Shown here: positions 20,961 to 38,404 of the stretch, in pieces
How positions within the stretch are numbered: position 1 is the first letter of the stretch
How the letters are laid out: each line of letters starts with the position of its first letter
Assembly: GCA_017512985.1 (NCBI GenBank)
Contig: JAFWEJ010000008.1
Coordinates: forward strand, 62,001 to 126,000
DNA length: 64,000 bases
Direction of reading: 5' to 3'
Source: Clostridia bacterium
Lineage (GTDB): Bacteria > Bacillota > Clostridia > Christensenellales > Aristaeellaceae
The notes under the pieces: model-generated
Database searches by the model: none
The model's input: only the letters and a program-made list of their open reading frames with translations
What the model was told of the DNA's origin: nothing
Made by a program: the position numbers and the translations under genes

Positions 20961-22451
20961 ATGGCAGACATGGAAGTCCAGAACCTGAACGAGCTGCTTC
21001 AGATCCGCAGGGACAAGCTTAAGGAACTGCAGGAAGCAGGCAGGGACCCCTTTGTCATCACCAAGTATGACGTGACGCATCACAGCAGTGATGTGAAGGA
21101 CAACTACGACGAGATGGAAGGCAAGGAAGTTTCCATCGCCGGCCGCCTGATGTCCAAACGCGTTATGGGAAAGGCTTCCTTCTGCAATGTGCAGGACCTG
21201 AAGGGCAGCATCCAGTGCTACGTTGCCCGCGACGCGATCGGCGAGGAGCCCTATAAGGACTTCAAAAAGATGGATATCGGCGATATCATCGGCCTGAAGG
21301 GTACCGTTTTCAAGACGAAGACGGGCGAGATCTCCATCCATGCCTCCGAGTTGATCCTGCTGAGCAAGAGCCTGCAGATCCTGCCGGAGAAGTACCACGG
21401 CCTGACCAATACCGACCTGCGGTACCGCCAGCGCTATGTTGACCTGATCATGAACCCGGAAGTGAAGGATACTTTCATCAAGCGCTCAAAGATCATCAGC
21501 ACCATCCGCCGCTACCTGGACGCTCAGGGTTTCATGGAAGTGGAAACACCCATGCTGGTTTCCAATGCCGGCGGCGCTGCCGCTCGTCCTTTTGAGACAC
21601 ATTTCAACGCCCTGGACGAGGATTTCAAGCTTCGCATTTCCCTGGAACTGTACCTGAAGCGCCTGATTGTGGGCGGCCTGGAGCGGGTGTATGAGATCGG
21701 CCGCGTCTTCCGGAACGAAGGTCTGGATACCCGGCACAACCCGGAGTTCACCCTGATGGAACTCTATCAGGCCTATACCGATTACCACGGCATGATGGAC
21801 CTGACTGAGAATATGTACCGCTATGTGGCGCAGGAAGTGCTCGGAACGACGAAGATTGTCTATAACGGCATCGAGATGGACCTGGGCAAGCCCTTCGCGC
21901 GGATTACCATGGTGGACGCCGTGAAGCAGTATGCCGGCGTGGACTTCAACGAGATCCACACGCTGGAGGAAGCCCGGGCTGCCGCGAAGGAGCATCATGT
22001 CGAATACGAAGAACGGCATGGCAAGGGCGATATCCTGAACCTGTTCTTCGAGGAGTTCTGCGAGGAGCACATGGTCCAGCCGACCTTTGTCATGGATCAT
22101 CCGATTGAGATTTCCCCGCTGACCAAGATGAAGCCCGGACATCCGGACTATGTGGAACGGTTCGAGTTCTTTATGAACGGCTGGGAAATGGCCAATGCCT
22201 ATTCCGAACTGAACGACCCGATTGACCAGCGCCGCCGTTTCGCTATGCAGGAGGAACAGTTTGCCGCCGGCGACGAGGAAGCGAACCACACGGATGAAGA
22301 CTTCCTGAACGCCCTGGAGATCGGCATGCCGCCCACCGGCGGTATCGGCTTCGGCATTGACCGCATGTGCATGCTGCTGACAGATTCCGCCGCCATCCGA
22401 GACGTACTGCTGTTCCCGACGATGAAGCCGGTTGAGACCGGAAACCCTTGA
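20961..22451 (+). CDS. lysS: Lysyl-tRNA synthetase, class II (3' end re-supplied by an integrated element)
   Basis: The 496-residue enzyme has an N-terminal OB fold for anticodon binding (about 58-150), motif 1 region ([22 protein letters not shown]), motif 2 ([11 protein letters not shown]) and motif 3 ([14 protein letters not shown]). It ends [15 protein letters not shown] second in-frame copy of the end, LIPTMKPMASGDVEK followed by a stop, lies 16 kb downstream (38357-38404), so the last eight or so codons here probably came with the integrated element. The enzyme should be fully active because only the extreme C-terminus changes. Confidence 0.96.
22414..22430 (+). other. attL core in lysS
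   Basis: TCCCGACGATGAA is identical to 38361-38373; the next four bases differ only at the first (GCCG against ACCG). It lies in the same codon frame at both ends. Confidence 0.8.
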
Positions 22452-22494
22452 AAAATAAGGATTTCAATGCTCTCAGAAAGGCCAAAAAAAGCAG

Positions 22495-22517
22495 TTTGAT
22501 GCAAATTTGATGCAAAT
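22495..22517 (+). repeat. Left arm-type integrase sites
   Basis: Two overlapping TTTGATGCAAAT motifs repeat with an 11-base period, close to one helical turn. They match the motifs around the right end of the element. Confidence 0.65.
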
Positions 22518-22547
22518 GGACAGATGCAGCTTTAACGGACAAGGATT

Positions 22548-22582
22548 GACCAACTTCAGAATCTGAAGTTGGTCATTTTTTT
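22548..22582 (+). terminator. Terminator after lysS (element-borne)
   Basis: GACCAACTTC pairs with GAAGTTGGTC around AGAATCT and is followed by ATTTTTTT. It now ends the greA-lysS transcript. Confidence 0.88.
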
Positions 22583-22643
22583 GCGCTTCATTTTTGTCAT
22601 ATCTGGTATTATGGAGCTGATGGATATTCCTAAGAGATGATTG

Positions 22644-22910
22644 TTATTCTGTACGGAATCCTCGTTCATCCGGCTCTGGGTACAGGGGCGTGATGTCCAT
22701 GTTCTGAATCCAGACATATCGTCCTGACTCGATGGACTGGATGACTTTGTCGATTGCTTCCTCTGTTCCCTGTATCTCCATGGTGACGGTTCCGTCCCAG
22801 TCATTCCGGCACCATCCCGTACAGCCATACAGGTTTGCTGCCTGCCGGGCTCGCCAGCGGAAGCCGACTCCCTGAACCTGACCGCTGAAGACAATATGCT
22901 TACGGATCAT
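22644..22910 (-). CDS. Acylphosphatase
   Basis: This 88-residue protein has the full acylphosphatase fold signature: GQVQGVGFRWRARQAA contains the phosphate loop with the catalytic Arg, and GCTGWCRNDWDGTVTMEIQG contains the catalytic Asn. The family hydrolyses carboxyl-phosphate bonds such as acetyl-phosphate or carbamoyl-phosphate. It is the last gene of a minus-strand group at the left end of the element, overlapping the upstream ORF by four bases. Its cargo role is unknown. Confidence 0.9.
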   Translation of the reverse strand: MIRKHIVFSGQVQGVGFRWRARQAANLYGCTGWCRNDWDGTVTMEIQGTEEAIDKVIQSIESGRYVWIQNMDITPLYPEPDERGFRTE

Positions 22911-23077
22911 TCCGGTTTATCCATTCCCATCTTTTCCGTCAGGTCACCCAGGGATTTATCGTATTGTGCCTGGGAGATCGCTCCGCGCTCCAGAAACAGG
23001 TCCAGGGTGTGCTTCTGGTCCAGATAGAGTTTCTTCAGCTGCTCCTCATGGGTCAGCGGCTTCTCAGTATCGTTCAT
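22907..23077 (-). CDS. Small charged protein
   Basis: This 56-residue ORF starts MNDTEKPLTHEEQLKKLYLD and ends EKMGMDKPE. It overlaps the start of the acylphosphatase (ATGA) and the end of the upstream gene by four bases, a typical coupled arrangement. It contains GAISQAQYDKSLGDL, a short helical 'SHOCT-like' pattern (a hydrophobic helix, G-x-I-(S/T)-x-x-(Q/E)-(Y/F)-x-x). Function unknown. Confidence 0.6.
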   Translation of the reverse strand: MNDTEKPLTHEEQLKKLYLDQKHTLDLFLERGAISQAQYDKSLGDLTEKMGMDKPE

Positions 23078-23295
23078 AGTTTTCTTTCATCCTCGTGTTC
23101 AACGGTATAGATGACATATTTCCCGGCCTGATCCCTGTCCCATGCTTTGGCTGCTGCCTGATAATCCACACTGCCGTCAATCATGGGCGGAGTATGGGAC
23201 TTTTTGCTGCTGCGGACGGGGTTGTATGGTTTATGCTCTTCTCTTCTGAATTCATCCATCGCTGCCTGGTAGTCGATGGGATTGTTATCTTTCAT
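23074..23295 (-). CDS. Small hypothetical protein with DYQAA repeat
   Basis: This 73-residue hydrophilic protein contains DYQAA twice (residues 8-12 and 44-48), each in a D-x-x-R/W-D context, so it may derive from an internal duplication. It is the first gene of a three-gene overlapping group with the small charged protein and the acylphosphatase. No family is recognised. Confidence 0.5.
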   Translation of the reverse strand: MKDNNPIDYQAAMDEFRREEHKPYNPVRSSKKSHTPPMIDGSVDYQAAAKAWDRDQAGKYVIYTVEHEDERKL

Positions 23296-23342
23296 TTAGG
23301 TTCGCCTCCGGGTTGCTATTGTATAATCGGAAGGGCAAAAAC

Positions 23343-24668
23343 TCAATAGGAGAGTGTCAGATCCGCTTCGTTGAACCAGACTGTCACGCCGCCGAAGCCG
23401 TATTTCCATTCTTTATAGACAACGGCGCCGATCGGATTGTTGGTTTTGTCCGGGCTGGATCCGGATACTTTTGTTTTCATCGGCAGCAGTACCAGCGTGC
23501 CGTCCTCCAGCTTTGTCTTCTCGTTGCCTTTGGTCACGGGATAGTAGTTGCTTACCTGCCAGAAGGTTGCGATGCAGTATCCCTCTTCCCAGGCAGAGTT
23601 CAGGCTCTTCTCCCAGTAAGGCTCAGTGACGAAATTAACCACATCGATCCAGCAGTCCTCTCCGGTGTCCATCCGGATCACATGCAGGTAGCCTTTATAT
23701 TGCTTATAGGATTTCTTTTCCAGTTTCTGGCCGATTACGACTACTTGAGTCTTGTGGGCAATGGTGCCGGCTTCCTGCCAGAACTGTCTGTCCGGCTGAA
23801 AAACCGTTATCTGCCAGGGTGTCTGTGTGAAGGTGCCGTTCTTTTCAAACTGGAATTCGTCATAGACGGAGGCATAGCCCAGCACGCCGATATAGTCCGG
23901 CTCGCTGCTGCTGTAGCTGGATTGCCCGCGGCTGTCCTTCCAGGAAGCCTTTTCCACTTCGGGGGCATAAGCGGTGGCGGGAACTTCCTGTCCTTTGGAG
24001 TTTGCCAGAGTGTACCGGACGGTGATGCCGGCCTTCTGTGAAGTGGTCAGCGTGTCCGGGTCCGGCGTCTCGCCGGCTTCCGCCATAGCCGTATAGTATT
24101 TGTTTACTGCCTCCTGTGCGGCGGCTACGTCCGGTTCCGGCGTGGCTGTCGGGGCAGGGGTGTTCGTGGGGCCGGATTTAGCCGTGGTCTTGGCCGTTGT
24201 GGTCACTTTCGTTGTATTGGTTGTCCGGGTGGTGGTTGTATTCTTCTTCGTACCGCTCCTGTTACCAAACAGCAGCGCCAGTACGATAAAGACAAGGATG
24301 ATTGTACCGCAGCCGCAGCCTTTGCCTTTCTTTTTCGCCTGCCGGGCCTGTGTGGGCGTGTAGGAAGCCCGGGAAGGCGCCTCTTCATACACGTGCTTAT
24401 GGACGACTGTCTGCTCCACCTTCTGCACTATAGGCTTTCTGGACGGCGTATAGCCGCAGTTGGGGCAGGCGTTGGTGAAATATGCGCTGCCGCAGTCCGG
24501 GCAGATCTTTTTCTTCTGTCCGGCTTTTACGCCGCAGTTCGGGCAGAAGCTGCTGTCGAACAGTGTGCCGCAGTTCTCGCATACATGCAGGAAGACAGCG
24601 GACCCGCAGCTCGGGCAGTGCTGTACGGTGTTCTCGACTTGGGTGTTGCAGAATTTACAGGCCTTCAT
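23343..24668 (-). CDS. Zinc-ribbon membrane protein with extracytoplasmic domain
   Basis: The 441-residue protein starts with four successive zinc ribbons (CKFCNTQ..CPSC, CENCG..CPNCG, CPDCG..CPNCG) within about 75 residues. A basic stretch and one membrane helix (GTIILVFIVLALLFG, near 120-135) follow, then a Thr/Pro-rich linker rich in TT and TP, and a beta-rich domain of about 250 residues. The topology suggests cytosolic ribbons and an external domain, as in many Clostridial zinc-ribbon/TM proteins. GGAAAGGAG precedes the start. Role unknown; it may sense or decorate the envelope. Confidence 0.65.
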   Translation of the reverse strand: MKACKFCNTQVENTVQHCPSCGSAVFLHVCENCGTLFDSSFCPNCGVKAGQKKKICPDCGSAYFTNACPNCGYTPSRKPIVQKVEQTVVHKHVYEEAPSRASYTPTQARQAKKKGKGCGCGTIILVFIVLALLFGNRSGTKKNTTTTRTTNTTKVTTTAKTTAKSGPTNTPAPTATPEPDVAAAQEAVNKYYTAMAEAGETPDPDTLTTSQKAGITVRYTLANSKGQEVPATAYAPEVEKASWKDSRGQSSYSSSEPDYIGVLGYASVYDEFQFEKNGTFTQTPWQITVFQPDRQFWQEAGTIAHKTQVVVIGQKLEKKSYKQYKGYLHVIRMDTGEDCWIDVVNFVTEPYWEKSLNSAWEEGYCIATFWQVSNYYPVTKGNEKTKLEDGTLVLLPMKTKVSGSSPDKTNNPIGAVVYKEWKYGFGGVTVWFNEADLTLSY

Positions 24669-24784
24669 GGGTCTCGCTCCTTTCCGTAGAAATTACAAAG
24701 GTTTCCTCAGGATGAGTGTACCGGGAAAGCAGCAGTGAATACAGGACCGGGTTGGAAGAATAGGGCAGGGTATTTCGTTTTTCG

Positions 24785-25000
24785 TCAGTCGTGTGAACCT
24801 TTGCCTGATTCAAGTATGGTTTTTTCATATCCGACAAGGACGCTTTCGCCTGTGTCAACTATCCGTTCCAGAATGATGACCATGTCCTCCATGCAAAGAT
24901 GACCGGGGCGTCCAATATAATCTACAGCTTTGCCCCATCTTTGCTTATAGAGTTCACATAATTCGTCGAGGCGTTTCAGTACTTCCGGATCAAAGCTCAT
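24785..25000 (-). CDS. Small hypothetical protein
   Basis: This 71-residue protein begins MSFDPEVLKRLDELCELYKQ and contains GRPGHLCMEDMVIILERIVDTGES. It overlaps the end of the upstream gene by 11 bases and is probably expressed with it. No family is recognised. The pairing of a small acidic protein with a larger partner could be an immunity-type arrangement, but nothing in the sequence proves it. Confidence 0.45.
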   Translation of the reverse strand: MSFDPEVLKRLDELCELYKQRWGKAVDYIGRPGHLCMEDMVIILERIVDTGESVLVGYEKTILESGKGSHD

Positions 25001-25685
25001 TGCTGCCTGCCTTTTTTATTTCCTGCACTGTGATTCTGCTGCAGGTAAAGCGGTAATATCCGATATCAAAAAATAATAAATCTTTGTTGTGATAGCAGGG
25101 ATAGCAGCAGAATTCCGAGATCCATGAGGTGACAGGATCGCCTTCCGCCTGGAATTCAATAATGCCTTCAAAGAGAAGGGTCACCTGGATATCGTTGTAC
25201 TGCAGGGTCAGCCTGGCTGTTTCTCCGGTCTGCTCAAATCGGATGGGTTTGCTGTCATGGAATCCGAAATCATTCAGCTTTTCATATCCGGATATCCATT
25301 TCATCTGTTCTTCGCAGTCCCGGTCCCGGCTTTCAAACTGATAGGCCATTGTTTCGCTGTAGTATTGATTCATTTCCAGCTCTTTGTCTGTCGGTATCAG
25401 GCTGGCGGAAACTGCGGCGCTGTATGCTTCCGCGGCCGGTTTCACGAATTTGTGATACCGGTCGAAGTCTGAATAGGGAAACCGGCTTTCTGCGTTCATC
25501 ATGGACAGAATCCGGGCGTAAAGCAGCGGTTCTTTGGTCTCGCATTGCTCTGCCTGGTGATAGGCGTTCCACAGGTGATACCAGCCTTCTTCCTGCTTCC
25601 GTCTCCAGCCGTCCTTACCGTCTTCCCGGAGGCAGGCTCTGGCCTGATCATATTCGGTTTTGATGGCTTCCCATTCTTTGTTCAT
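24990..25685 (-). CDS. Hypothetical protein, possibly DUF4085-like
   Basis: The 231-residue cytosolic protein starts MNKEWEAIKTEYDQARACLR. The C-terminal half has LNDFGFHDSKPIRFE followed by beta strands (ARLTLQYNDIQVTLLFEGI), a 'FHDS' pattern seen in DUF4085 and several immunity-like families. I chose ATG 25685 because AAAGGA is spaced well before it; the frame is open 36 codons farther upstream without a ribosome site. It is coupled to the 71-residue gene. Confidence 0.5.
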   Translation of the reverse strand: MNKEWEAIKTEYDQARACLREDGKDGWRRKQEEGWYHLWNAYHQAEQCETKEPLLYARILSMMNAESRFPYSDFDRYHKFVKPAAEAYSAAVSASLIPTDKELEMNQYYSETMAYQFESRDRDCEEQMKWISGYEKLNDFGFHDSKPIRFEQTGETARLTLQYNDIQVTLLFEGIIEFQAEGDPVTSWISEFCCYPCYHNKDLLFFDIGYYRFTCSRITVQEIKKAGSNEL

Positions 25686-25743
25686 GGTTGTTTTTCCTTT
25701 GTCGGAGTTAAGGCCTCTGATTGTCTTTAGCGGCCGGTCCGGC

Positions 25744-27462
25744 TTATTTCTTCTCAAACAAAACATCAAATTCTTCATCTGAGAACAGCACAAACTGGTC
25801 TCCGCTGAACGTCAGTTCACCGGTTTTCCCGGGAAACAGCATCACTGGCTTCTGATCTTTCGCGGTTTTGAATTCTTCAGATCCTTCTATTGTCTGTCTG
25901 ACATTCTCATACAGGGTGATTTTGATTGCGTTGTCCGGATTCCGGTTTGTCACGGTGTACGTTCCGGCAGGCAGGAAGTATCCGGTGAAGGTGTTTTCAG
26001 AATCCTTCCCGGCGTTCAGGGTGAGCTCTTTCCCGTAAGGGCTTTCTTCTCCGGCCCTGATCGGGATGGAAGACGCGTCCGGCAGGGGTTCGTCTGCTCC
26101 GGTTCCTTCGTTGGCAGCGGCGCCTGCCACCGGCAGCGCGTTGGGGGAGTTCTCTTCATCCCACTCGCAGATAAATCCGTTGATATAGTAATAAGTATTG
26201 CTCTCGTCATCCCAGGTGCCTCGGCTCATGGTCCAGTTGTTCTGGTCGGCGTATTCGCTGGCTGCAATCCGTGCGCAACTTTCCGGCTGATTCCTGTCCG
26301 GATTGCCGTCCATCCATTTGGTATAGGAAATGGCCTCCTTCGTCACCCAGGTGGAGAATGCCTTGCTCTTGCCTGTTGTCAGGCCGATCCAGTAGGACTG
26401 CTGCTTCTCTGCCTTTGCCAGGTATCTTTCCAGGAATTTCTGCTCATTCTCTCCGGTGATCGTGGCCAGATGCCCGCCGAGTTTCTCGCAGAAGGCTTCC
26501 GCTTCATCCCAGGATCGTCCGCTGTAGAATATCTGATAAGTATGTCCGCCGTAGCTTTCCGCTTCCAGCCGGCCGATGGTTTCTTCGTTTTCAACCGTCA
26601 CGGCTGTCTGGGCAATAAAGACGGTATAGGTGCTCTTTCCGGTCACTTTTTTGCCGTTGTGCTTCGTGACGATCTCAATCGTCTCAGATCCGGGCTTAAG
26701 CGGCCGGAGCCAGCCTTCTTTGGATCCTTCGCAGACCAGTCCGTTCTTGAAGGTGACCGTAGTGTCCTCGGTTTCGGAATGTGACCATCTGCCGATCTGT
26801 ATATAGGAGCCGTAGGAACTGGCCCGGGTCTGGAAATTCACCTGTACTTCCCCCGGGACGAGGATCAGCACATCGTGCTCCTTCACCTGCAGGGATATGG
26901 TGATTTTCTGCCTGGAGTCGTCCGTTGCCGCGCCGATGATATTGCATTTACCGACTGCAACAGCGCTGATTTCGCCGTTCTCGTCCACATTGGCGATCTT
27001 GTCGTTGGAGGAAGTCCAGGCCAGCTTCTTCATCGTCGCGTCTTCCGGCGTGATGGTAATCTCCGGCTTCCATGTAGTTCCCGGGGCTATGACCAGTTTG
27101 GTATCGGTTGAAGTGATTTTCTTTATCGGCTGCACCACCGTGATTTCCAGGCTGGCGGCAGCTCCGCTGTCATCGGTTGCCTTGGCAGTGATTGTCGCTG
27201 TTCCGGGAGCGATGCCCTTCACTTTGCCGTTCTGGACGGTTGCGATTGCTTCGTCCGACGATGACCATTCAAGCTTCTTTGCCGTGGCATTCTTCGGCGC
27301 GATGGCCGCTTTTACGTTCAGCGTCTTTCCGACAGAGACCACGGCGCTGCTCTGGTCCAGCGTGATGCTTTCCACCGGAACAGGATCAGCAGCTGCGGCG
27401 GGGAAGACGCAGCAAACGGAGAGAATCAGCGTAAGGAGTATAAGGAAACAGGTTTTTTTCAT
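25744..27462 (-). CDS. Secreted protein with Big_2 Ig-like domains and a C-type lectin domain
   Basis: The 572-residue protein has a signal peptide (MKKTCFLILLTLILSVCCVFPAAAA), two bacterial Ig-like group 2 domains at about 27-108 and 110-190 (LEWSSSDEAIATVQNGKVKGIAPGTATI and LAWTSSNDKIANVDENGEISAVAVG type), a third beta domain, and a C-type lectin domain at about 310-440 with SYWIGL, CARIAA and the final FICEWDE. A C-terminal beta region follows. AAGGAGG precedes ATG 27462. C-type lectin folds in bacteria often bind proteins and may be hypervariable, but no diversity-generating reverse transcriptase is seen here. Adhesion cargo of the element is an inference. Confidence 0.78.
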   Translation of the reverse strand: MKKTCFLILLTLILSVCCVFPAAAADPVPVESITLDQSSAVVSVGKTLNVKAAIAPKNATAKKLEWSSSDEAIATVQNGKVKGIAPGTATITAKATDDSGAAASLEITVVQPIKKITSTDTKLVIAPGTTWKPEITITPEDATMKKLAWTSSNDKIANVDENGEISAVAVGKCNIIGAATDDSRQKITISLQVKEHDVLILVPGEVQVNFQTRASSYGSYIQIGRWSHSETEDTTVTFKNGLVCEGSKEGWLRPLKPGSETIEIVTKHNGKKVTGKSTYTVFIAQTAVTVENEETIGRLEAESYGGHTYQIFYSGRSWDEAEAFCEKLGGHLATITGENEQKFLERYLAKAEKQQSYWIGLTTGKSKAFSTWVTKEAISYTKWMDGNPDRNQPESCARIAASEYADQNNWTMSRGTWDDESNTYYYINGFICEWDEENSPNALPVAGAAANEGTGADEPLPDASSIPIRAGEESPYGKELTLNAGKDSENTFTGYFLPAGTYTVTNRNPDNAIKITLYENVRQTIEGSEEFKTAKDQKPVMLFPGKTGELTFSGDQFVLFSDEEFDVLFEKK

Positions 27463-27551
27463 ATGGAAGGCCTCCTTCAGCAGGTTGGTAAGTATACAGT
27501 TCCTTTTCCCATATTCCATCCTACAGGGAAAGATGTAGGTTTTTTCTTACA

Positions 27552-28532
27552 TCAGTTTCCCAGCGCGTCATCGATCGCTGTCTGCAGCCGCATGGCGTAC
27601 TGCTCGCATACCTGCTCCGGCGCGATGACCGTCATCTCCCCGGCAAACTGGAACAGCCAGCCGTAGAAGGTGGGGGACAGGTGGACGGTCACAATCACAT
27701 CCAGGCTGTTTTCATCCCGCCGGGGAATCTCCAGGTTTGTCCCGAACTGATCCACGATCATGTTCATGAGGCTTGGCCGACAGCGGAGAGTGACCTTTTC
27801 TTCCGGTCCGTCGAACATGCTGAAGATCTTGTCGCTGTGGTCTTCCAGGCGCAGGTCATCCGGAATGGGATGCCTTTTCTTTCGGCTCAGCTTCGGAAGC
27901 TCCATCCGGTCAATGCGGAAATTGGCGACGCCGCCATGTTTTTCGCTCCAGCCCACAAGATAATATCTGTCTTTCTTCCAGATGGTCGCGTAGGGCGAGA
28001 CTTCGTAGGTGAATCCGTTGTGCTTCGGGACGCGGCGGAGCTGTGTGTCGTATGCGTCGTGCCGGAATGTGATGCGCCGGTCTGAGTCTATGGCTTCCTG
28101 TATGGTCTGAACCGTATACAGGAGCTGCTCATTGGGCGCCTTTACATGCTGCGCTGTCAGAATGCTGGGGCGCAGCTTTTTTCTTTCGGAAGGTCCTGCC
28201 ATCTGCCTCAGCTTTTCGATCAGCATGCCGGTTTTTTCACTGCTCAGGAACTGGCCGGCGCTGACTGCGTCAGTCAGGATCTGCAGCTCCGGCAGGGACC
28301 AGTCACGGCCCAGGAACTTGTAATAGGTGCCGACGCCGTTGACCTCATTCACGTCGATATCGTATCCGTACTTCCGCAGGGCGGCGATATCGTCCCGGAG
28401 CGTGGGCATGGAGACGCTCTCACCGATTTCACGGAACATCTGCCTCAGCTCGGTGTTGCTGGTGGGCGTTTCCTCGTCCGTATTGTCCTTCAGGTACTGA
28501 AGAAGAATAAGAAGCCTGTCTTTGGTATCCAT
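27552..28532 (-). CDS. WYL-domain transcriptional regulator
   Basis: The 326-residue protein has an N-terminal winged helix-turn-helix (about 1-60, MDTKDRLLILLQYL...MPTLRDDIAALRKYGYDI), a WYL domain near 130-210 (VSPYATIWKKDRYYLVGWSE, HGGVANFRIDRM) and a WCX-type C-terminal domain. WYL proteins sense nucleic acid or other ligands and control DNA-damage or defence genes. ATG 28532 has CAGGAG upstream; the frame is open to 28826 but that part is an intergenic region. The promoter lies at 28567-28595. Confidence 0.85.
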   Translation of the reverse strand: MDTKDRLLILLQYLKDNTDEETPTSNTELRQMFREIGESVSMPTLRDDIAALRKYGYDIDVNEVNGVGTYYKFLGRDWSLPELQILTDAVSAGQFLSSEKTGMLIEKLRQMAGPSERKKLRPSILTAQHVKAPNEQLLYTVQTIQEAIDSDRRITFRHDAYDTQLRRVPKHNGFTYEVSPYATIWKKDRYYLVGWSEKHGGVANFRIDRMELPKLSRKKRHPIPDDLRLEDHSDKIFSMFDGPEEKVTLRCRPSLMNMIVDQFGTNLEIPRRDENSLDVIVTVHLSPTFYGWLFQFAGEMTVIAPEQVCEQYAMRLQTAIDDALGN

Positions 28533-28566
28533 ATGCGGTTTGCTCCTGTATGCTTTGATCGCTGTT

Positions 28567-28595
28567 ATCTTAACATACCGGGTAATGTCTGTCCA
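28567..28595 (-). promoter_or_regulatory. Candidate promoter of the WYL regulator
   Basis: On the minus strand TGGACA (28595-28590) is followed by 17 bases and TAAGAT (28572-28567). Confidence 0.45.
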
Positions 28596-28678
28596 CTTTG
28601 TGCCCGTAAATATACTTGCGAGGTCGGAATGTTCCCCTTGCAATCCCGTCCGGGGCAAAATAGAATGATCATGCAGAA

Positions 28679-28697
28679 AGCACAAAAATATTGTGCT
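28679..28697. promoter_or_regulatory. Palindromic operator-like site
   Basis: AGCACAA, five bases, TTGTGCT: a perfect 7-bp inverted repeat in the WYL/zinc-ribbon divergent intergenic region. The same motif is in the promoter of the Y-family polymerase operon (49282-49300). Confidence 0.5.
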
Positions 28698-28882
28698 AAT
28701 GAAGCAGAGCTGCCAATCAGAAAAAAGCCAATTTCTGGCTGGCAACTCCCGGAGCCTGTGCCGGACAAGGCCCGGGCCCGCTTTTCCACAACCCCTGTGC
28801 AAAGCCTTTTCCATTCGTCGGAGCAAGGAATTTCAAGGCTTCCGGGGCGCAAAAATTCACCTGTGGATTACCGGATTTCCCA

Positions 28883-30345: not shown

Positions 30346-30807
30346 ATGAAAAAGGGTGTTCGCTGCAATGAAACAAGGAATGATTCCCGGGAGGGACGGG
30401 ATAGGATCCGGTATGAATTCCTGTCGGATGATGGGATCACACCGTCTTCCTGCACGGTACAGCTCGGGGACATCGATACCGTGACCGGGGAAGCGGTCAC
30501 AGATGTGACGATCTTCCGGGAGTATTACCGCCTGAAGGATCACCAGGTAAGGAAGAACCTGAAGGCAGAGCGGCCGGAGTATACGGAAGATGAGATTTCC
30601 AGGAGAAAGGAAGCCCGGGAAGCGTTCGCGGAGGAGTTCCGCAGGCGCTGGGGATACGCGCCGTCCCGGGATGATCTGCTGTATCTCATGGAGGAGCAGG
30701 AACGCTGGAACCTGTCCGTCAGCGTTCTGGTGAATGAGGAAGGGAAACTGATAACATTTTATACTCCGGAAGGAAAAGAATATTGCAGAATAACAAATCA
30801 GGAATAA
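30346..30807 (+). CDS. Hypothetical element protein
   Basis: The 153-residue protein is hydrophilic and highly charged. A basic-acidic helix region (DEISRRKEAREAFAEEFRRR) is followed by WGYAPSRDDLLYLMEEQERWN and a short beta tail. AAAGGA lies seven bases before the ATG. Terminators lie both upstream and downstream, so it is an independent unit. No family is recognised; it may be regulatory. Confidence 0.55.
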   Translation: MKKGVRCNETRNDSREGRDRIRYEFLSDDGITPSSCTVQLGDIDTVTGEAVTDVTIFREYYRLKDHQVRKNLKAERPEYTEDEISRRKEAREAFAEEFRRRWGYAPSRDDLLYLMEEQERWNLSVSVLVNEEGKLITFYTPEGKEYCRITNQE

Positions 30808-31179: not shown

Positions 31180-31395
31180 TCACTCCCAGCAGGTGATCGG
31201 TTCGGCGCTGAGCAGGTCGTTGAGCCTGACGCCGAACAGGCGGGCTATATCCGGGAGCAGCTCTTCTTCCGGAACCTTATAGCCGTTCTCCCAGTTGGAG
31301 ACGGTGCCGTGCATAAGGCTGAGGAATTCATCGCAGCAGGTCCGGGTAATGCCTTTCTTTTCCCTGAGGATCCTGATCTTGGTTCCGAGACTCAT
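31180..31395 (-). CDS. XRE-family repressor-like regulator
   Basis: The 71-residue protein is one Cro/CI-type helix-turn-helix (GTKIRILREKKGITRTCCDEFL...TVSNWENGYKVPEEELLPDIARLFGV). GAAAGGAGA lies well placed before ATG 31395. It is divergent from the phage-like recombination genes and faces an 11-bp inverted repeat at 31448-31479, a likely operator. It probably controls the element's excision/replication genes, as in phages and ICEs; that is inferred from position. Confidence 0.82.
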   Translation of the reverse strand: MSLGTKIRILREKKGITRTCCDEFLSLMHGTVSNWENGYKVPEEELLPDIARLFGVRLNDLLSAEPITCWE

Positions 31396-31479: not shown

Positions 31480-31503
31480 TTTTTTTATTTTTTTTGCGGC
31501 CGG

Positions 31504-31536: not shown

Positions 31537-31574
31537 ACTGCAAGGAAGCTGTCCTGCGGAAGGGAGGAACGGAT

Positions 31575-31784: not shown

Positions 31785-31801
31785 GAAAGGAAAGACTGGT
31801 T

Positions 31802-32248
31802 ATGGATAAAATGGAAGGTTTGCGCGCGGGGGTCGTTGAGATGCGGTCTGTGGCGCAGAGGCTGAACCAGTGGGCGGACGATCTGGAAGCATCGTTTCGG
31901 GGAAAGGATGGAGAGCCGGCAGGCGATGCCGCCGGAATTACCGCCGGTGAAGCTGAGGTGCCCGCTGCGGCAGAAGTACCTGCTGCCGGACCGTGTACCG
32001 CTGAAAAGAAAAAAAGAGCTGCGAAGCCTGCCGGCTTTGAACAGGCAGCAGCTCCGGAAAAGGGAAAGACGCTTACGCTCCCGGAGGTACGGGCGGTACT
32101 TGCGGAAAAGTGCGCGGCGGGCTTCGGCACACAGGTGAAGGGCCTGATCGAATCGTACGGCGCCTCCACCCTGAAGGAAGTACCGGCTGACCGGTATGAG
32201 GAACTGCTGGAAGCAGTGAAGGGCCTGGGTGATGCGGATGCCGGATAA
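31802..32248 (+). CDS. Phage-associated protein upstream of DUF2800
   Basis: The 148-residue protein has an N-terminal helix (MDKMEGLRAGVVEMRSVAQR), a long Ala/Glu/Pro-rich linker and a conserved C-terminal helical domain (LTLPEVRAVLAEKCAAGFG then QVKGLIESYG). In Clostridial prophages a protein of this form often precedes DUF2800; databases sometimes label it 'rRNA biogenesis protein rrp5', a misnomer. It overlaps the next gene by 17 bases. Confidence 0.6.
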   Translation: MDKMEGLRAGVVEMRSVAQRLNQWADDLEASFRGKDGEPAGDAAGITAGEAEVPAAAEVPAAGPCTAEKKKRAAKPAGFEQAAAPEKGKTLTLPEVRAVLAEKCAAGFGTQVKGLIESYGASTLKEVPADRYEELLEAVKGLGDADAG

Positions 32249-33389
32249 ACACGCATTCCTGTCGCCGTCGTCTTCGGAACGCTGGTTCCATTGCACAAGG
32301 TCGGCCTGGCTCTGTGAGCAGTTTCCGGATCTGGGCAGCGTATTCGCCGCGGAAGGTACGGAGGCACACCGGTTGTGTGAGTTCCTGCTGCACCGCCTGC
32401 TGGAGGTGCCGGATGTGGATCCCCGGCCCGGCATGAAGTACTACACGCAGGAGATGGAAGAGGCGGCCCAGGGTTATGTCCAGTTCATTCATGAACGGCT
32501 CGAAAGGTGGAAGGCCGCAGGGCAGTCACCGGAAGTGTTTGTGGAGCAAAGGGTGGACCTGCGGATGTTTATCCCGGAGAGCATGGGCACTTCGGACTGC
32601 GTGATCATCACGGACCATGATATCGAGATCATCGATTTTAAGTACGGAATGCATCGTGTGCCAGCTTCTTCGCTGCAGCTCCGGATCTACGCCTTAGGCG
32701 CGTGTGAACTGTTCGGTAGGCTGTATGAGGATATCGGCCGGGTGCATATGGTGATCTACCAGCCCCGCCTGGGTTCCGTGGATGAAGCGGAAATGGACAT
32801 GGATGAGCTTTACCACTGGGCGGATGAGGAATTGAAGCCCCGGGCGGAACTGGCCTTCGCCGGACAGGGAGATTATTCCGTCGGCGAGTGGTGCCGGAAC
32901 TGCCGGGCCAGAAGAACCTGCCGGGAGCTGGCGGCGCATCAGCTGGAAATCGCCAGGTATGAGTTTACGGAACCGCCGCTGCTCTCGGATGAGGAGATTG
33001 CGGACGTGCTCAGCCGGGTGGATGATCTGGTCTCCTGGGCAACCGGGGTGAAGGAGTATGCCCTGCAGGCGGCACTGGACGGACGCCGCTTTGAGGGCTG
33101 GAAACTGGTTGAAGGAAAGTCTGTCCGGAAGTTTACGGATGATGCCTGTGTGGCGGCCCGCGTGGAAGCCGCCGGTATCGATCCTTACGAGCGGAAAATG
33201 CTGGGACTGACCGCGCTGGAGAAAAAGCTGGGGAAGAAGGATTTTCAGAACCTGCTGGCCGATCTGGTGGTCCGGTCCCAGGGGAAACCGACCCTGGTGC
33301 CTGTTTCGGATAAACGGGTGGAAATGAATCTGGCGAGCGTGGAATTCACCGCCGAGAATGATATGAAAGAGGTAAATGAAAATGAGTAA
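32232..33389 (+). CDS. DUF2800 PD-(D/E)XK nuclease (Cas4/RecB-like)
   Basis: The 385-residue protein begins near MRMPDKHAFLSPSSSERWFHC and contains GTEAHRLCEFLL (the H of motif I), DCVIITDHDIEIIDFKYG (D...E-x-K nuclease core: IIDFKYG) and a C-terminal Cys cluster CRNCRARRTC that, with the N-terminal Cys, could hold a 4Fe-4S centre. DUF2800 proteins are phage recombination exonucleases of the Cas4/RecB fold. The exact start (GTG 32229, ATG 32232 or 32238) is uncertain. It overlaps the preceding gene and the DUF2815 gene. Confidence 0.82.
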   Translation: MRMPDKHAFLSPSSSERWFHCTRSAWLCEQFPDLGSVFAAEGTEAHRLCEFLLHRLLEVPDVDPRPGMKYYTQEMEEAAQGYVQFIHERLERWKAAGQSPEVFVEQRVDLRMFIPESMGTSDCVIITDHDIEIIDFKYGMHRVPASSLQLRIYALGACELFGRLYEDIGRVHMVIYQPRLGSVDEAEMDMDELYHWADEELKPRAELAFAGQGDYSVGEWCRNCRARRTCRELAAHQLEIARYEFTEPPLLSDEEIADVLSRVDDLVSWATGVKEYALQAALDGRRFEGWKLVEGKSVRKFTDDACVAARVEAAGIDPYERKMLGLTALEKKLGKKDFQNLLADLVVRSQGKPTLVPVSDKRVEMNLASVEFTAENDMKEVNENE

Positions 33390-33954
33390 GAATTCTGTTA
33401 ATCCTTGCAAAGTGATCACCGGGAAGGATACCCGGCTGAGCTATGAACATGTCTGGGAGCCTGCCTCCATCAACGGCGGGACGCCGAGGTATTCCGTGTG
33501 CTGTATGATTCCGAAGTCCGATTCCGTGACGGTGGACAAGGTGCGCAAAGCCATCGAGGCCGCGTATCACGAGGGCGAGGGCAAGCTCAAGGGCAGCGGC
33601 AAGACAGTGCCGCCCATGAGCGCCATCAAGAACCCGCTGCGGGACGGCGACCTGGATCGTCCGGATGATCCGGCTTTCGCCGGCATGTGGTTCGTGAACG
33701 CGAACACCGATCGGGCGCCGGGCGTCGTGGACCTGGGCTGCAATCCGATTATCGACCGCAGCGAAGTGTACTCCGGCTGCTACTGCCGGGTATCCCTGAC
33801 CTTCTATGCTTTCAACAGCAACGGGAACCGCGGCATCGCCTGCGGGCTCAACAACCTGCAGAAGGTGAAGGACGGCGAGCATCTGGGCGGCCGTGTCAGC
33901 GCTGAAGTGGAATTCGCCGGCCTGGACGACGACGATGAGGACTTCCTGGCATGA
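33382..33954 (+). CDS. DUF2815, predicted phage single-strand DNA-binding protein
   Basis: This 190-residue protein carries typical DUF2815 segments: LSYEHVWEPASINGGTPRYSV, AIKNPLRDGD and GVVDLGCNPIIDRSEVYSGC, then an Asp/Glu-rich C-terminus (DDDDEDF) like SSB tails. The family sits beside DUF2800 and phage DNA polymerase and is predicted to bind ssDNA. AGAGG spacing favours ATG 33382 over 33376. The DNA polymerase gene expected next is missing; an HNH endonuclease gene takes its place. Confidence 0.8.
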   Translation: MSKNSVNPCKVITGKDTRLSYEHVWEPASINGGTPRYSVCCMIPKSDSVTVDKVRKAIEAAYHEGEGKLKGSGKTVPPMSAIKNPLRDGDLDRPDDPAFAGMWFVNANTDRAPGVVDLGCNPIIDRSEVYSGCYCRVSLTFYAFNSNGNRGIACGLNNLQKVKDGEHLGGRVSAEVEFAGLDDDDEDFLA

Positions 33955-34523
33955 AAAAAATGAATTCGGGGGATGGCGGTTCTTCCGCCATCCCTGTCTC
34001 CACAGAACTCTGGCGGGATATACCCGGGTATGAAGGGTATTATCAGGTTTCTACCCTGGGTCGGGTCCGATCGCTGCCGCGGGTCATTCCCGTGTATGAC
34101 AGTATCCGGCGGGTCTCGTACGCGAGGCCCTGCCCGGGAAAGATCCTGAGCCCGGCGGTATGCGACAGGGCCGGCCATGTGTCCGTGAATCTGGGGAAAC
34201 GGGTACGGGGAATTCCGGTCCACCGGCTGGTGATGCGCACTTTCCACGGCGATCCGCCTCCCGGTATGGAGGCGATGCACCTGAACGGGAACCCTACGGA
34301 TAACCGGCTTGAGAATCTGCAGTACGGCACCCATTCCCGGAACATGATCGATATGTACCGAATCGGGAAGGGCCCGCTGAAACTGACCCCTGAGGAAGTC
34401 CGGCAGATCCGTTTCGGGCTGGCCTGCGGCTGGTCCCTGCGGGAACTGGCATGGGCTTACAGGGTATCTCCGGCCTGCATCTGGGATGTGAAAAAGGGGA
34501 GGCGGTACGCATGGGTCGCATGA
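33951..34523 (+). CDS. NUMOD4-HNH homing-type endonuclease
   Basis: The 190-residue protein has a NUMOD4 motif (ELWRDIPGYEGYYQVSTLGRV), an HNH_3 core (VHRLVMRTFHGDPPPGMEAM, HLNGNPTDNRLENL) and a C-terminal helix-turn-helix (LTPEEVRQIRFGLACGWSLR, ELAWAYRVSPACIWDVKKG). Such freestanding homing endonucleases are common in phage early regions. It overlaps the DUF2815 stop (ATGA). The phage replication block ends just after it, so it may mark a recombination junction. Confidence 0.85.
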   Translation: MKKMNSGDGGSSAIPVSTELWRDIPGYEGYYQVSTLGRVRSLPRVIPVYDSIRRVSYARPCPGKILSPAVCDRAGHVSVNLGKRVRGIPVHRLVMRTFHGDPPPGMEAMHLNGNPTDNRLENLQYGTHSRNMIDMYRIGKGPLKLTPEEVRQIRFGLACGWSLRELAWAYRVSPACIWDVKKGRRYAWVA

Positions 34524-34560
34524 AGATGATCCGACTCGTGTAAAACTTCTGGTCAAGGAT

Positions 34561-35835
34561 ATGAACGGGGGCAACATGGTGGCAGTTGACGTTGTCAACG
34601 GAGATATCCTTCCCAGCTTTAAAAGGGATGAGGCAATTGAATTGCAGATGATTGCCTTTGCGGAGCACGCGGATTTTTATGCTGATGAATCTGCTTATGC
34701 GGATACGATTGAACCCGGTCCAAATGGCAGAAAAACAATGATCGGAGAGAATACGCTGTTTCCGGTTGGGCTGTTTTCTGATGATGAGGATGTCAAAGAT
34801 GTTGTGCAGATTCATGGTACCATCAAAAGCATGGCTCTGGGGAAAAACAACATCGAAGGTGAGGAGGTTTCTGCCAATATTCGCTGCCATGTGGACACGC
34901 AGCTGGGAGAGATTGTAATCATTCTTCCGCTGGATGATATCGATGAAGTCAGAAGCAATGAAAACATGCGCGAAGGCAAGGTCATTAACTGCCTTGCCCG
35001 GTTATCCGGAGATGCGGCGATAAATGCCTATGAGGACGGGCTCGTCAGAGATGCAGACAATAATCTGAAATTAGTTGCGTATACGCTTGAAGACGGGGAT
35101 CCGGAACGCCTGCGTTGTGTACTAGCGAATAATTTCACTTATCATTCTGACAGTTCCGGAAAAGATATCAGTGACGCAGATGAATATATTCAGTTCGCAA
35201 AATATGTAAATTCCAAAGCAAAGCCTACTCATACGGATTATGCGACCATCACTGAAATCACTGAAGGAGAGGAAGAATTAAAATATCCGGTCGGGACTCG
35301 CTGCGCTCTTATTCAATATGAAGGAGAAGAAGGATATGACGCCATCATTTTTGTGGATACAGATGATGAAGGAAATATCAGCCGGATTCTCCTGAGCAGG
35401 GAAGGCCGGTATCGTTTCACGGTTGACAATCCTTATCCGGAGAAGGAAGACTTTGATCTTGCTGAGATGATTGCTAAAGCGACATATAAATCTTCGATTA
35501 TCGGCAGGTCTCATTTCCATGATCTGATTGATAATGAATTGGATGAAGAGGGAATCGATCAGTATATCGCAGAACACCAAGATGATCTGGAAGCAGACGT
35601 CGCTGATCTTTCCATCAAAGAGATTGAAGAAGAAGTTTTTGCAGAAGCGTTTTTGCGCGGTGTCCGGAAGAGCCGGATTAAGGATTATAAGGATGAAAAT
35701 ATAAGGGCTCTTGGACGGCAATTCCATAAAGACGCAACATTGTTCAAATCCGAAGAGGAACAGAAGAACACATTCCATGACGCTTTAGTGCTTGTTGTTG
35801 CAATTGGCCGGCTGTACAAGGGGCGGGCTGACTGA
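34561..35835 (+). CDS. Low-GC protein of unknown function, possibly 5'-truncated
   Basis: The 424-residue acidic protein has no recognised domain. It contains beta-rich middle parts (VQIHGTIKSMALG, GEIVIILPLDDIDEV, YPVGTRCALIQYEGEEG) and a helical, acidic C-terminus ending VLVVAIGRLYKGRAD. Its GC content is visibly lower than that of the phage-like genes before it, so it is probably a separate acquisition. No proper ribosome site precedes ATG 34561, and the frame is open and plausible for 23 codons upstream (ending VKLLVKD), so the true 5' end may be lost. A terminator follows. An abortive-infection or other defence role is possible but not shown. Confidence 0.55.
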   Translation: MNGGNMVAVDVVNGDILPSFKRDEAIELQMIAFAEHADFYADESAYADTIEPGPNGRKTMIGENTLFPVGLFSDDEDVKDVVQIHGTIKSMALGKNNIEGEEVSANIRCHVDTQLGEIVIILPLDDIDEVRSNENMREGKVINCLARLSGDAAINAYEDGLVRDADNNLKLVAYTLEDGDPERLRCVLANNFTYHSDSSGKDISDADEYIQFAKYVNSKAKPTHTDYATITEITEGEEELKYPVGTRCALIQYEGEEGYDAIIFVDTDDEGNISRILLSREGRYRFTVDNPYPEKEDFDLAEMIAKATYKSSIIGRSHFHDLIDNELDEEGIDQYIAEHQDDLEADVADLSIKEIEEEVFAEAFLRGVRKSRIKDYKDENIRALGRQFHKDATLFKSEEEQKNTFHDALVLVVAIGRLYKGRAD

Positions 35836-35854
35836 TCCGATTGATTCTGTTTTG

Positions 35855-35880
35855 TCCTCCGAGTGTTCGGAGGATTTTCT
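35855..35880 (+). terminator. Rho-independent terminator
   Basis: TCCTCCGA / TCGGAGGA with a 4-base loop is followed by TTTTCTCTTTT. Confidence 0.82.
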
Positions 35881-35960
35881 CTTTTGTTCTCATTATGATA
35901 GAATGACTGTGTTTCCAGCTGATTGGTATTTGCTGAAAAGATTATCAAGGGAATGTACTG

Positions 35961-36455
35961 ATGACTGAAATGATCACATACCGCCTGATCGGAACGGGTG
36001 TCTGGGGCTATGAGTTCTTTGACGCGGAGCGAAGCCAGATTGGCTTCGTCAGGAATGGTATGTCCAGATCTGATCCGGTTCGTATTGAGGGGGAAGGCAT
36101 CAGCTGGTTCAGTCTCTTCGGCCTGGACAATACAATTGTTCCCGGGACCAGCCGAAAGGTAAAGGACAGTAAGAGCGGACAGGAAATATACCGGATTGTT
36201 TTCTGGCAGCCGGGATTGTATGAGGTCCGGCCGGCGGCAGGGGATTCCGTTCAGGTGGAGATCCGGGAAGGCGCTTATCTTTTCGGTCCGCCGCAGATGC
36301 CGGCTACGGCGCTGACACAGCGGATCAGCGAAGCTGAATGGATTCCGACAAAAGGGCTGGAGATTGAACCGTATTTCCATACTACGCTCTATGAGGATGT
36401 CAGTCCGGCTTATCTGATGATGGTTCTTTCCTTTCCGGCACTCAGGTTCTATTGA
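35961..36455 (+). CDS. Hypothetical beta-rich protein
   Basis: The 164-residue cytosolic protein begins MTEMITYRLIGTGVWGYEFF and alternates beta strands with the pattern GFVRNGM, VRIEGEGISWFSLFG, IYRIVFWQPGLYEV and VQVEIREGAYLFG. This resembles the tubby/LURP-one-like barrel, but the match is by eye. GAAAAGATTATCAAGGGAATG lies before it; AAGGGA is the likely ribosome site. Cargo of unknown role. Confidence 0.5.
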   Translation: MTEMITYRLIGTGVWGYEFFDAERSQIGFVRNGMSRSDPVRIEGEGISWFSLFGLDNTIVPGTSRKVKDSKSGQEIYRIVFWQPGLYEVRPAAGDSVQVEIREGAYLFGPPQMPATALTQRISEAEWIPTKGLEIEPYFHTTLYEDVSPAYLMMVLSFPALRFY

Positions 36456-36522
36456 TTTGTGGTTTGGTTTTCAGGTGTTGCTTCAGGCAGCATCTTTTTT
36501 TGTGCTTTTTTGTCGGCATAGG

Positions 36523-36555
36523 GGGTAAAAAATGCGATTTTTTCCGCACTTACCC
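36523..36555 (+). promoter_or_regulatory. Repeated leader hairpin, copy 2 (upstream of xis)
   Basis: The 33-base unit has GGGTAA / TTACCC ends, an inner TGCG / CGCA stem and the shared TTTTTTCCGCACTTACCCA. It lies about 50 bases before the xis start. Copy 1 precedes the recombination operon. Confidence 0.55.
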
Positions 36556-36607
36556 ATTGGAGAGAGGGCCCGCTTTCCTAAAGAGATGTGAAGGAGCGAT
36601 CTTTGCA

Positions 36608-36835
36608 ATGGATGAAAACAGGGAAGTCAGAAGCCGGAAAGGGGATATCCCGGTCTGGGAAAAGTATCTGCTGAGCACGGAGGAGGCCAGTGATTATTTT
36701 CATATCGGGATTAACAAACTGCGTCGGATTATATCACTGAATCCGACTGCTGAATGGATCCTCTGGAACGGTTCGCATGCCTATGTCAAAAGGCGGATTT
36801 TTGAGCATTTTATTGATGGCATAAATGACATCTGA
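36608..36835 (+). CDS. xis: Excisionase, Tn916 Xis family
   Basis: This 75-residue protein contains DIPVWEKYLLSTEEASDYFH and IGINKLRRI, then WILWNGSHAYVKRRIFEHFI: the winged-helix pattern of Tn916 Xis, which bends DNA to favour excision. ATG 36608 has GAAGGAG upstream; the frame is open back to 36452 through the leader hairpin. It is 65 bases before int, the classic order. Confidence 0.88.
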   Translation: MDENREVRSRKGDIPVWEKYLLSTEEASDYFHIGINKLRRIISLNPTAEWILWNGSHAYVKRRIFEHFIDGINDI

Positions 36836-36857
36836 GCTTTATTTTTCAAGGGGTGTA

Positions 36858-36866
36858 TGGTATAAT
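36858..36866 (+). promoter_or_regulatory. Extended -10 promoter of int
   Basis: TGG immediately followed by TATAAT, 35 bases before the integrase start. The -35 is weak. Confidence 0.5.
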
Positions 36867-36900
36867 GAATATGTCCGTTAGAGTTGCTGCAGGAGGCAGC

Positions 36901-38157
36901 ATGCAACGAAAAGACGACAAAGGAAGACTATTAAGAAGTAACGAGTACGTCAGAGGCGATGGGAGGTATGCATATCAGTATTTCGATCTGAAAGGCAACC
37001 GTAAACGGGTTTATTCCTGGCGTTTAGTGGAAACCGATCCTGTTCCTAAAGGGAAGGCGTGGTGCGAAAGCTTGCGTACGATGGAGAAGGCGATCCTGAA
37101 GGATCAGCTGGACGGCATCGAAACAAAAAGCAAGCTGACGCTCAATGACCGATGGGATGCCTATATCTCGGACAAACCGGAACTGAAGCAGTCCACGAGA
37201 ACGAATTACAAGTATATGTACGATAAGTACATCCGGGACGATATCGGAAAGATGTCAATCAAGTCCATTACGTACAGTGATTGTAAGAGGTTCTTCAACA
37301 AGCTGATTCATGAGAAAGGGTTTAAGCCGAGAAGCGTGGAGATTATCAACACGCTGCTTCATCCCGTATTCAGGATTGCGGTCAGGGACAATCTGATCCG
37401 CACCAATCCGACCGACGGCATTATCGCTGAACTGAAAAGGAGCAATGATTGGGTTATGGAAAAGAGACATGCTTTAACGAAAACACAGCAGCAGGCTTTT
37501 GTGAACTACGTCAGGAATCATAAGGTTTACGCTCACTGGGATCCATTGATCACTTGCCTTCTCGGTACGGGCTGCCGCATCGGGGAGATGCTCGGGCTGC
37601 GCTGGGAGGATGTGTTCTGGAAGGAAGGATTCATTTCCATCAATCACAGCCTCATCTACCGGTTGCAGGATGACGGCACCGTCAAGTTCAGGGTCACCAC
37701 GACGAAGACAAAGAACAGTAACCGGGAGATCCCGATGTTCGACTCCGTCATCCGGGCTCTGAAGACCGAGTATAAGCGCCAGAGTGAGGAAGGGTTCTGT
37801 CTGGATGAAATCGAGGGTTACTCAGGATTCATCTGGATGAACAGGGAAGGACATGTCCTTTGCCCTCATAATCTGAACCGTGCGCTGGAAAGGATCATCA
37901 GGGACTATAATGATGAGGAAAAGGTAAGGGCGAAAAAGGAACGGCGCAAGCCGATGCCGCTTCCGCACTTTACGGCTCATCATCTCCGTCACACGTTTTG
38001 TACAAGAATCTGTGAAAACGAGACGGACCTGAAGCTGATCCAGGAGATCATGGGTCATGCGGATATCACGACCACGATGGACGTGTATAACGAATCGAAC
38101 CTGGAACGTAAAAAGGAACGGTTTGCCAAGCTTGAAAAGATCGCGAACGTGTTCTGA
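36901..38157 (+). CDS. int: Tyrosine recombinase, Tn916 Int family
   Basis: The 418-residue integrase has an N-terminal arm-binding domain of Tn916 type (RKDDKGRLLRSNEYVRGDGR, YSWRL), a SAM-like core-binding domain (about 75-165), and a catalytic domain with Arg in GTGCRIGEMLGLRWEDV, Lys in the TTKTKNSNREIP turn, HHLRHTF (H-x-x-R) and MGHADITTTMDVY (His and the Tyr nucleophile). ATG 36901 has AGGAGG just upstream. It catalyses insertion of the element at the lysS 3' end and, with Xis, its excision. Confidence 0.95.
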   Translation: MQRKDDKGRLLRSNEYVRGDGRYAYQYFDLKGNRKRVYSWRLVETDPVPKGKAWCESLRTMEKAILKDQLDGIETKSKLTLNDRWDAYISDKPELKQSTRTNYKYMYDKYIRDDIGKMSIKSITYSDCKRFFNKLIHEKGFKPRSVEIINTLLHPVFRIAVRDNLIRTNPTDGIIAELKRSNDWVMEKRHALTKTQQQAFVNYVRNHKVYAHWDPLITCLLGTGCRIGEMLGLRWEDVFWKEGFISINHSLIYRLQDDGTVKFRVTTTKTKNSNREIPMFDSVIRALKTEYKRQSEEGFCLDEIEGYSGFIWMNREGHVLCPHNLNRALERIIRDYNDEEKVRAKKERRKPMPLPHFTAHHLRHTFCTRICENETDLKLIQEIMGHADITTTMDVYNESNLERKKERFAKLEKIANVF

Positions 38158-38160
38158 AAC

Positions 38161-38300
38161 CGTGATGCATTTTTTTGATGCAAATTCCTCCCGGGCGTGA
38201 TGCAAATTTTGATGCAAATGACCGTGGGAGCGTGATGCAAATTTTGATGCAAATGACCGTGGGGTTACGTGGCTAAATGCATCAAAAAGTGCATCAAACC
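38161..38300. repeat. Right-end arm-type integrase sites with 35-bp tandem repeat
   Basis: GATGCAAAT or GATGCA occurs repeatedly. A 35-bp unit (starting GCGTGATGCAAATTTTGATG) is present twice at 38195-38229 and 38230-38264. TGCATCAAA appears in the opposite orientation twice at about 38277-38298. This matches clustered Int arm sites near attR. Confidence 0.7.
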
Positions 38301-38356
38301 TCGAAAAGATTTATGAAAAAGTGAGGAAAATCAACGGTTCCAGGGCACGAAAAATA

Positions 38357-38404
38357 CTGATCCCGACGATGAAACCGATGGCGTCTGGAGACGTTGAGAA
38401 ATAA
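38357..38404 (+). pseudogene. lysS: Displaced lysS 3' end with attR core
   Basis: CTGATCCCGACGATGAAACC continues in frame as LIPTMKPMASGDVEK and a TAA stop. It parallels [14 protein letters not shown] at the current lysS end. It is the original chromosomal lysS tail pushed away by integration; the core at 38361-38377 is attR. Confidence 0.8.

Follow-up and report, generated by a model that had tools for sequence, protein, structure and literature searches.

In Streptococcus, integrative and conjugative elements (ICEs) are described as integrating at the 3' end of lysS, the gene for lysyl-tRNA synthetase (LysRS), and the insertion is said to alter the end of LysRS very little (PMC4701971). ICEs of the vanG family occupy the same gene end in S. 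suis, in a report that also treats tandem accretion in general (PMC7168690), and Enterococcus carries vanD islands of 113-143 kb in lysS with a 13-bp repeat, TTCCC[G/A/C]AC[A/G]ATGA (PMC8301612, PMC10765050). In this study, we analysed a 64,000-nucleotide stretch of contig JAFWEJ010000008.1 from a Clostridia bacterium (hereafter the window), in which about 15.9 kb (22.43-38.38 kb) lies between two copies of a core sequence in and beyond lysS. The lysS 3' end with this core is an already known target, and the window element is a further case of a published kind of insertion. Very probably, a mobile element with Tn916-type Int and Xis integrated in the lysS 3' end and supplied a new ending, at a site where an older element had probably left a scar.

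Core repeats, junctions and arm sites at lysS

The core, TCCCGACGATGAA followed by one variable base (R) and CCG, was located by genome and window repeat searches at 22414-22430 within lysS (attL) and at 38361-38377 (attR), both on the forward strand. The extended copies read TTCCCGACGATGAAGCCG at 22413-22430 and ATCCCGACGATGAAACCG at 38360-38377. They were the sole matches in the window at up to three mismatches; 100 shuffles gave a mean of 0.09 matches and never two (0/100). The 17-mer TCCCGACGATGAANCCG occurred exactly twice in the 2.63-Mb assembly of 17 contigs. Both copies are read in the identical codon frame (FPTMKP and IPTMKP), the right one as LIPTMKPMASGDVEK and a stop. A preliminary description of the window had noted this shared core and frame, as well as the continuation of the right copy to a stop and a terminator. 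That continuation consists of the displaced earlier lysS ending, MASGDVEK with its stop (38378-38404, forward strand), homologous to the ending in genome G017, and a terminator-like hairpin behind it (38482-38503, forward strand). The present lysS (20961-22451, forward strand) is an open reading frame (ORF) for a LysRS of 496 amino acids (100% own match, 97% to G017), of which the body is that of the host and the last residues, VETGNP, come with their stop from the element (22431-22451, forward strand). A terminator-like hairpin at 22547-22575 (forward strand) marks the present end of the gene. A tRNA as integration target was rejected, as no tRNA or tmRNA was found in the window.

At the right end lie genes of Tn916 type for Xis (36452-36835, forward strand; PF09035, 4.7e-19) and for the tyrosine recombinase Int (36853-38157, forward strand; PF02920, 3.2e-25; PF14659; PF00589, 1.7e-27; PDB 1bb8, 1b69 and 6en0), both with uncertain start codons. 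PF02920, PF00589 and PF09035 all scored above their cut-offs, as in a Tn916-type integrase module. In G017, the lysS gene, 97% identical to that of the window, ends KPVAAGDVEK and a stop without the 16 kb; downstream of it follow a homologue of window 38361-38583 (73%) and then 40.75-64 kb in order, and no Int relative was found in the 38.8 kb examined. G017 is thus the element-free relative that had been predicted, with lysS running directly into the homologue of the 38.4-kb sequence. Int was detected at E<=1e-60 in 4 of 45 genus genomes, the source genome included, so the genes at 22.5-38.4 kb are not a constant feature of these genomes. No other compared lysS tail ended in VETGNP; the nearest was IEAANP, at a second, tandem left end in G016. 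Core direct repeats at both borders, an integrase at one of them and an element-free allele in G017 characterize the block as a lysS 3'-end element, and the paired cores, the Int/Xis genes and the G017 allele together sustain the proposal that a site-specific tyrosine recombinase element was inserted in a gene end with a replacement.

We compared the junctions with those of relatives. At the right end, DNA similarity to G031 (Int 91%) and G066 (Int 85%) spans the core and ceases at 38377 and 38376, respectively. Beyond it, G066 has the plain ending KPLTDKNTEESKDEE and a stop, and homologues of the window genes from 41.7 kb resume about 2 kb further on; G031 has KPLGDKNEAE and a stop, and 51 of 81 aligned bases past the core equal those of the window, which is about background. 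The left end of the G066 element, on another contig, reads KPLSSENVEKSTVPADGE and a stop followed by the doublet TTTAATGCAGAATTAATGCAGA, a motif that recurs beside the G066 int. G034 shares this left end, with 88.0% identity in the 250 bp before the core (lysS) and 95.9% in the 250 bp behind it. Similarly, lysS of G010 and G016 is 67.8% identical over the whole gene, 75% over the last 250 bp and 87% in the 90 bp behind the core, and the window left end matches the tandem left end in G016 at 71 of 89 post-core bases, its closest relative. Across species, left-end tails therefore resemble each other more closely than do the lysS genes bearing them, as expected if the LysRS C-terminus is element-encoded. 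Several points count against this picture: the G034-G066 similarity fades past about 500 bp, the G010-G016 identity is down to 78% over 150 bp behind the core, and neither excision nor a circular form was observed in what is a single assembly. At the level of sequence comparison, the site, the element-free allele, the junction and the travelling of endings with element left ends are established. In G016 (L038:1-6230), lysS is followed by an element with GTGCGTC arms and an integrase and then by the left end with window-like TTTGATGCA arms.

Behind each core copy stands a doublet with an 11-bp period, TTTGATGCAAATTTGATGCA at 22495 and TTTGATGTAAATTTGATGTA at 38430. The left arm doublet, TTTGATGCAAATTTGATGCAAA, occupies 22495-22516, and the right arm sites at 38163-38296 comprise six copies of TGATGCA along with two of the inverted form, TGCATCA; the arm-type doublet TTTGATGTAAATTTGATGTA at 38430-38449 lies outside the element and is read as the scar of an older one (all forward strand). 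The window holds 13 TGATGCA/TGCATCA heptamers, of which 10 cluster at the element's ends, 8 in the stretch from int to the right core and 2 within the left end. The other 3 lie elsewhere. In eight of nine elements compared, the arm motif was the longest string common to both ends; in the ninth, that of G179, TACGCCAA was found at both ends by eye. The N-terminal domain of Int likely binds the TGATGCA sites near both cores. The repeats listed for G031 (L045), G066 (L046) and window 36853-38296, namely TTTACTGTAAA, TTAATGCAGA and TTTGATGCAAA, are quite different despite Int identities of 91% and 85%. Window and G031 Int are 93% identical outside the N-terminal domain and 81% inside it, and their arm repeats differ. 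Window and G066 Int, however, show 86% in both parts. Because this second pair lacks the contrast and the arm assignment was crude, with some non-arm 8-mers picked, we do not claim a code for Int arm specificity.

In the proposed mechanism, the attachment site of the element would recombine with the core in the lysS 3' end, a core that contributes FPTMK close to the C-terminus of LysRS, and the portion of lysS beyond the core would be pushed to the far side. The element brings an in-frame ending (VETGNP and a stop), the arm-site doublet and a terminator, and lysS stays intact because of this stop and terminator. By analogy with the family, Int would bind the arm sites at both ends and the core, and Xis would direct excision. 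MASGDVEK is the ending that lysS had just before the present insertion, most likely derived from an earlier element at the same site that was reduced to a scar. We infer that Int and Xis catalyse these steps and that Int recognizes the arm repeats. By inference, too, the element is still excisable, the new ending has a neutral effect and a deletion removed the older element.

Gene content and present mobility

Pfam was applied to 17 element proteins and PHROGs to 10. The reverse strand of the left half encodes an acylphosphatase-like protein (22644-22910; PF00708, 1.3e-19), a zinc-ribbon protein (23343-24668; PF12773, 3.3e-10), a protein with Big_2 and C-type lectin domains (25744-27519; PF02368, 3.6e-27; PF00059, 9.9e-16), which is likely a surface protein, and a WYL-domain regulator (27552-28826; PF13280, 1.1e-11). 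A forward-strand protein without a Pfam or PHROG match (30346-30807) shares 36% identity over 95 aa with a left-end gene in the G034 element, and an HTH_3 regulator follows on the reverse strand (31180-31395; PF01381, 4.4e-07). Three phage-type DNA genes lie on the forward strand, encoding a DUF2800/phage exonuclease family protein (32229-33389; PF10926, 1.2e-127; phrog_69, 4e-118), an Enc34-type ssDNA-binding protein (33376-33954; PF10991, 2.3e-70; phrog_112) and an HNH endonuclease with NUMOD4 (33951-34523; PF07463, PF13392). A defence island was considered and rejected, as PADLOC on 10 proteins gave only WYL, weak Cas4-like and homing-endonuclease matches. The element is thus a short one with phage-type DNA genes, inserted at the lysS end in a known manner.

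No relaxase, coupling protein or type IV secretion family was found among the 17 proteins scanned with Pfam, smaller ORFs being outside that scan. The assignment to the Tn916 family therefore stands for Int and Xis, which Pfam recognized at the right end, but does not extend beyond them, where no conjugation family matched. Capsid, terminase, portal and tail genes were likewise absent from the 17 proteins scanned with Pfam and the 10 scanned with PHROGs, and no resistance family was found among the proteins scanned. In these scans, nothing identified the element as an ICE or a phage. It is quite possible, although we lean the other way, that the block has lost its mobility and persists as an island derived from a decayed prophage or satellite. 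The phage-type DNA genes in a set of 17 proteins without capsid, terminase or conjugation matches fit such decay, as does the restriction of the DNA shared with G031 to 35.96-38.38 kb; against it, no sign of decay is apparent in Int, Xis, either core or either set of arm sites.

Origin of the displaced ending

The tail at 38.4 kb had been described as the original lysS tail. It does represent the lysS ending before the present insertion, but an original host tail is improbable in view of the arm doublet, the likeness to a scar in G017 and the plain tail in G066. Judged from its sequence context, it was probably brought in as a replacement by an older element that has since decayed. The displaced tail is likely second-hand because an arm doublet like those of element left ends sits behind it, at 38430, +67 from the core, with a score matched in 1 of 300 shuffles. 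This doublet equals the left doublet of the element itself with C changed to T; for the window, with up to three mismatches allowed, the expected number of such matches is 0.01. With a doublet called at >=8/10 matches, 23 of 65 core sites had one, at positions +67 to +101; the core pattern misses deviating lysS cores (e.g. L005-L008), which are therefore absent from the 65. Among 17 right ends sorted by eye, five were backed by a doublet at the same threshold (the window, L038, L040, L071 and L074). In G017, a doublet stands at the same place as the window scar, followed by a fragment that shares 66% identity over 68 aa with the left-end gene in the element of G034, indicating that elements came and went here more than once. 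G066, with a plain tail at the same place, and other plain endings had no doublet.

It is unlikely, though not negligibly so, that the right copy is instead the untouched host ending and the doublet a chance or host sequence. The doublet's near identity to that of the left end, its position at a distance seen in other left ends, its recurrence in G017 and its absence from plain endings all speak against this. Other observations weigh in its favour and against a second-hand tail. G006 (lysS 91%) has a similar ending, LAVGDAEK, with no doublet, and this doublet-free ending, one of 16 others compared, also aligned with the right flank beyond all shuffles, so that GDVEK/GDAEK could be a host ending. 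Most left ends failed to align with the right flank in this way: only 3 of 9 with a doublet exceeded all shuffles (the window left end, the G016 tandem end and G017), and two of these three alignments are partly due to the doublet itself. Moreover, the G017 doublet TTTACATCAAATTTACATC (L033:94-190) runs opposite to that of the window (38361-38449). We also considered the right flank as a widespread repeat and rejected this, as among 200 family genomes a match to the 261 bp turned up in just 2, the source genome and G091 (26 bases); G017, which does match in the direct comparison, was absent there, either not drawn or missed. The replacement tail of an older element remains our preferred origin for the displaced ending.

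Related elements and comparison with known systems

At E<=1e-90, Int was found in 14 of 308 family genomes. By eye, 12 of these 14 relatives have the lysS core shortly downstream of int; of the two exceptions, one contig ends after about 190 bp and the other has no core in about 500 bp. Among the best 80 Int relatives, drawn from named genomes and mostly from Clostridia of gut and rumen, a core was present no more than 700 bp downstream in 62 cases; when the count is restricted to the 76 for which 400 bp or more of sequence was available, it is 61. An upstream core was seen in 1 of 80, and the reversed pattern in 0 of 80. Although duplication or rearrangement could leave part of a conserved gene as a short direct repeat, such an origin without a site-specific recombinase is highly improbable for the lysS repeat, since the right core is preceded by arm repeats and int rather than lysS, in the same order in G031 and G066, and the lysS core neighbours int in those 62 of 80. 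The end of a universal, essential gene is thus a shared docking site in many Clostridia. A LysRS ending may belong to a mobile element and not to the lineage, which matters for annotation, for alignment and for dating insertions. In the right ends of G195 (L073) and G179 (L074), the core is preceded by lysS sequence of about 100 bp or more, suggesting that these elements hold a longer lysS fragment.

The LysRS of some relatives carries a C-terminal tRNA-binding domain (PF01588), and at 13 of the 62 right ends this domain was found next to the element as a displaced, in-frame continuation of the core. Isolates with displaced domains include Blautia hansenii MSK.15.26 and [Clostridium] citroniae WAL-17108, the latter with lysS and a displaced domain on a single contig. 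The window itself holds no remnant of it (best E 2.2), and such a remnant was rejected there. We surveyed those 13 genomes together with the family genomes G073 and G146. In 9 of the 15, lysS stops 3-4 residues past FPTMK, and an arm doublet follows in 8 of the 9; the G340 locus ends within 50 bp. Truncated lysS with a doublet, and the domain displaced elsewhere, is seen at L202 (G073), L201 (G146), L196 (G334) and others. One of the nine, G339, also has a domain-bearing second lysS on another contig, and its assembly may for that reason be mixed. In four genomes (G336, G338, G342 and G344), lysS keeps a domain and a further copy lies elsewhere beside core sequence. An arm doublet stands directly behind the lysS stop in G336, G338 and G342 (L192, L190, L191), not in G344, which places the domain next to lysS inside an element in these three. 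In agreement with this order, G338 (strain 1XD42-54) and G342 (Blautia hansenii) are 78% identical in lysS (1000 bp before the core), 89% in the domain and 96% in the 150 bp behind the stop; their displaced domains are 72% identical. Just past the core their linkers are different, which leaves room for later recombination. Two genomes, G343 (at a contig end) and G337 (with another ending), were left unclassed. More than one displaced domain copy was found in G335, G336, G337 and G344, as element stacking would leave.

Some elements thus appear to cut off the tRNA-binding domain of LysRS, and a few appear to bring a replacement. On balance, we favour the view that Clostridia-wide elements rewrite the LysRS C-terminus at three scales, namely a few residues, loss of the domain and replacement of the domain by an element copy, that this amounts to a reversible switch of form, and that displaced domains record past insertions. 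Site-specific integration can in principle be reversed, so that LysRS would change form as the element integrates and excises. In the literature searched, with subscription papers mostly outside reach, we found no report of the tRNA-binding domain being exchanged or removed by an element in lysS. If the losses and swaps hold experimentally, a reversible change of tRNA binding by a housekeeping synthetase becomes testable.

The window element shares with the Tn916 module the Pfam families of the arm-binding and catalytic domains of Int and of Xis, with matches to PDB 1b69 and 1bb8. Tn916 is described as low-specificity (PMC4701971), whereas the window element is site-specific in lysS. The vanD islands have the same core, the window copies being compatible with TTCCC[G/A/C]AC[A/G]ATGA, but they span 113-143 kb and carry vanD, in contrast to 16 kb with no resistance family among the scanned proteins. 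The Streptococcus ICEs resemble the window element in having a tyrosine integrase, in the gene end that they occupy, in their short direct repeats of 13 or 17 bp and in altering the protein end only slightly. They differ from it in carrying conjugation modules, none of which matched in the window element. Compared with these ICEs, the displaced ending in the window is probably second-hand, and elements related to that of the window appear to change a whole domain of LysRS.

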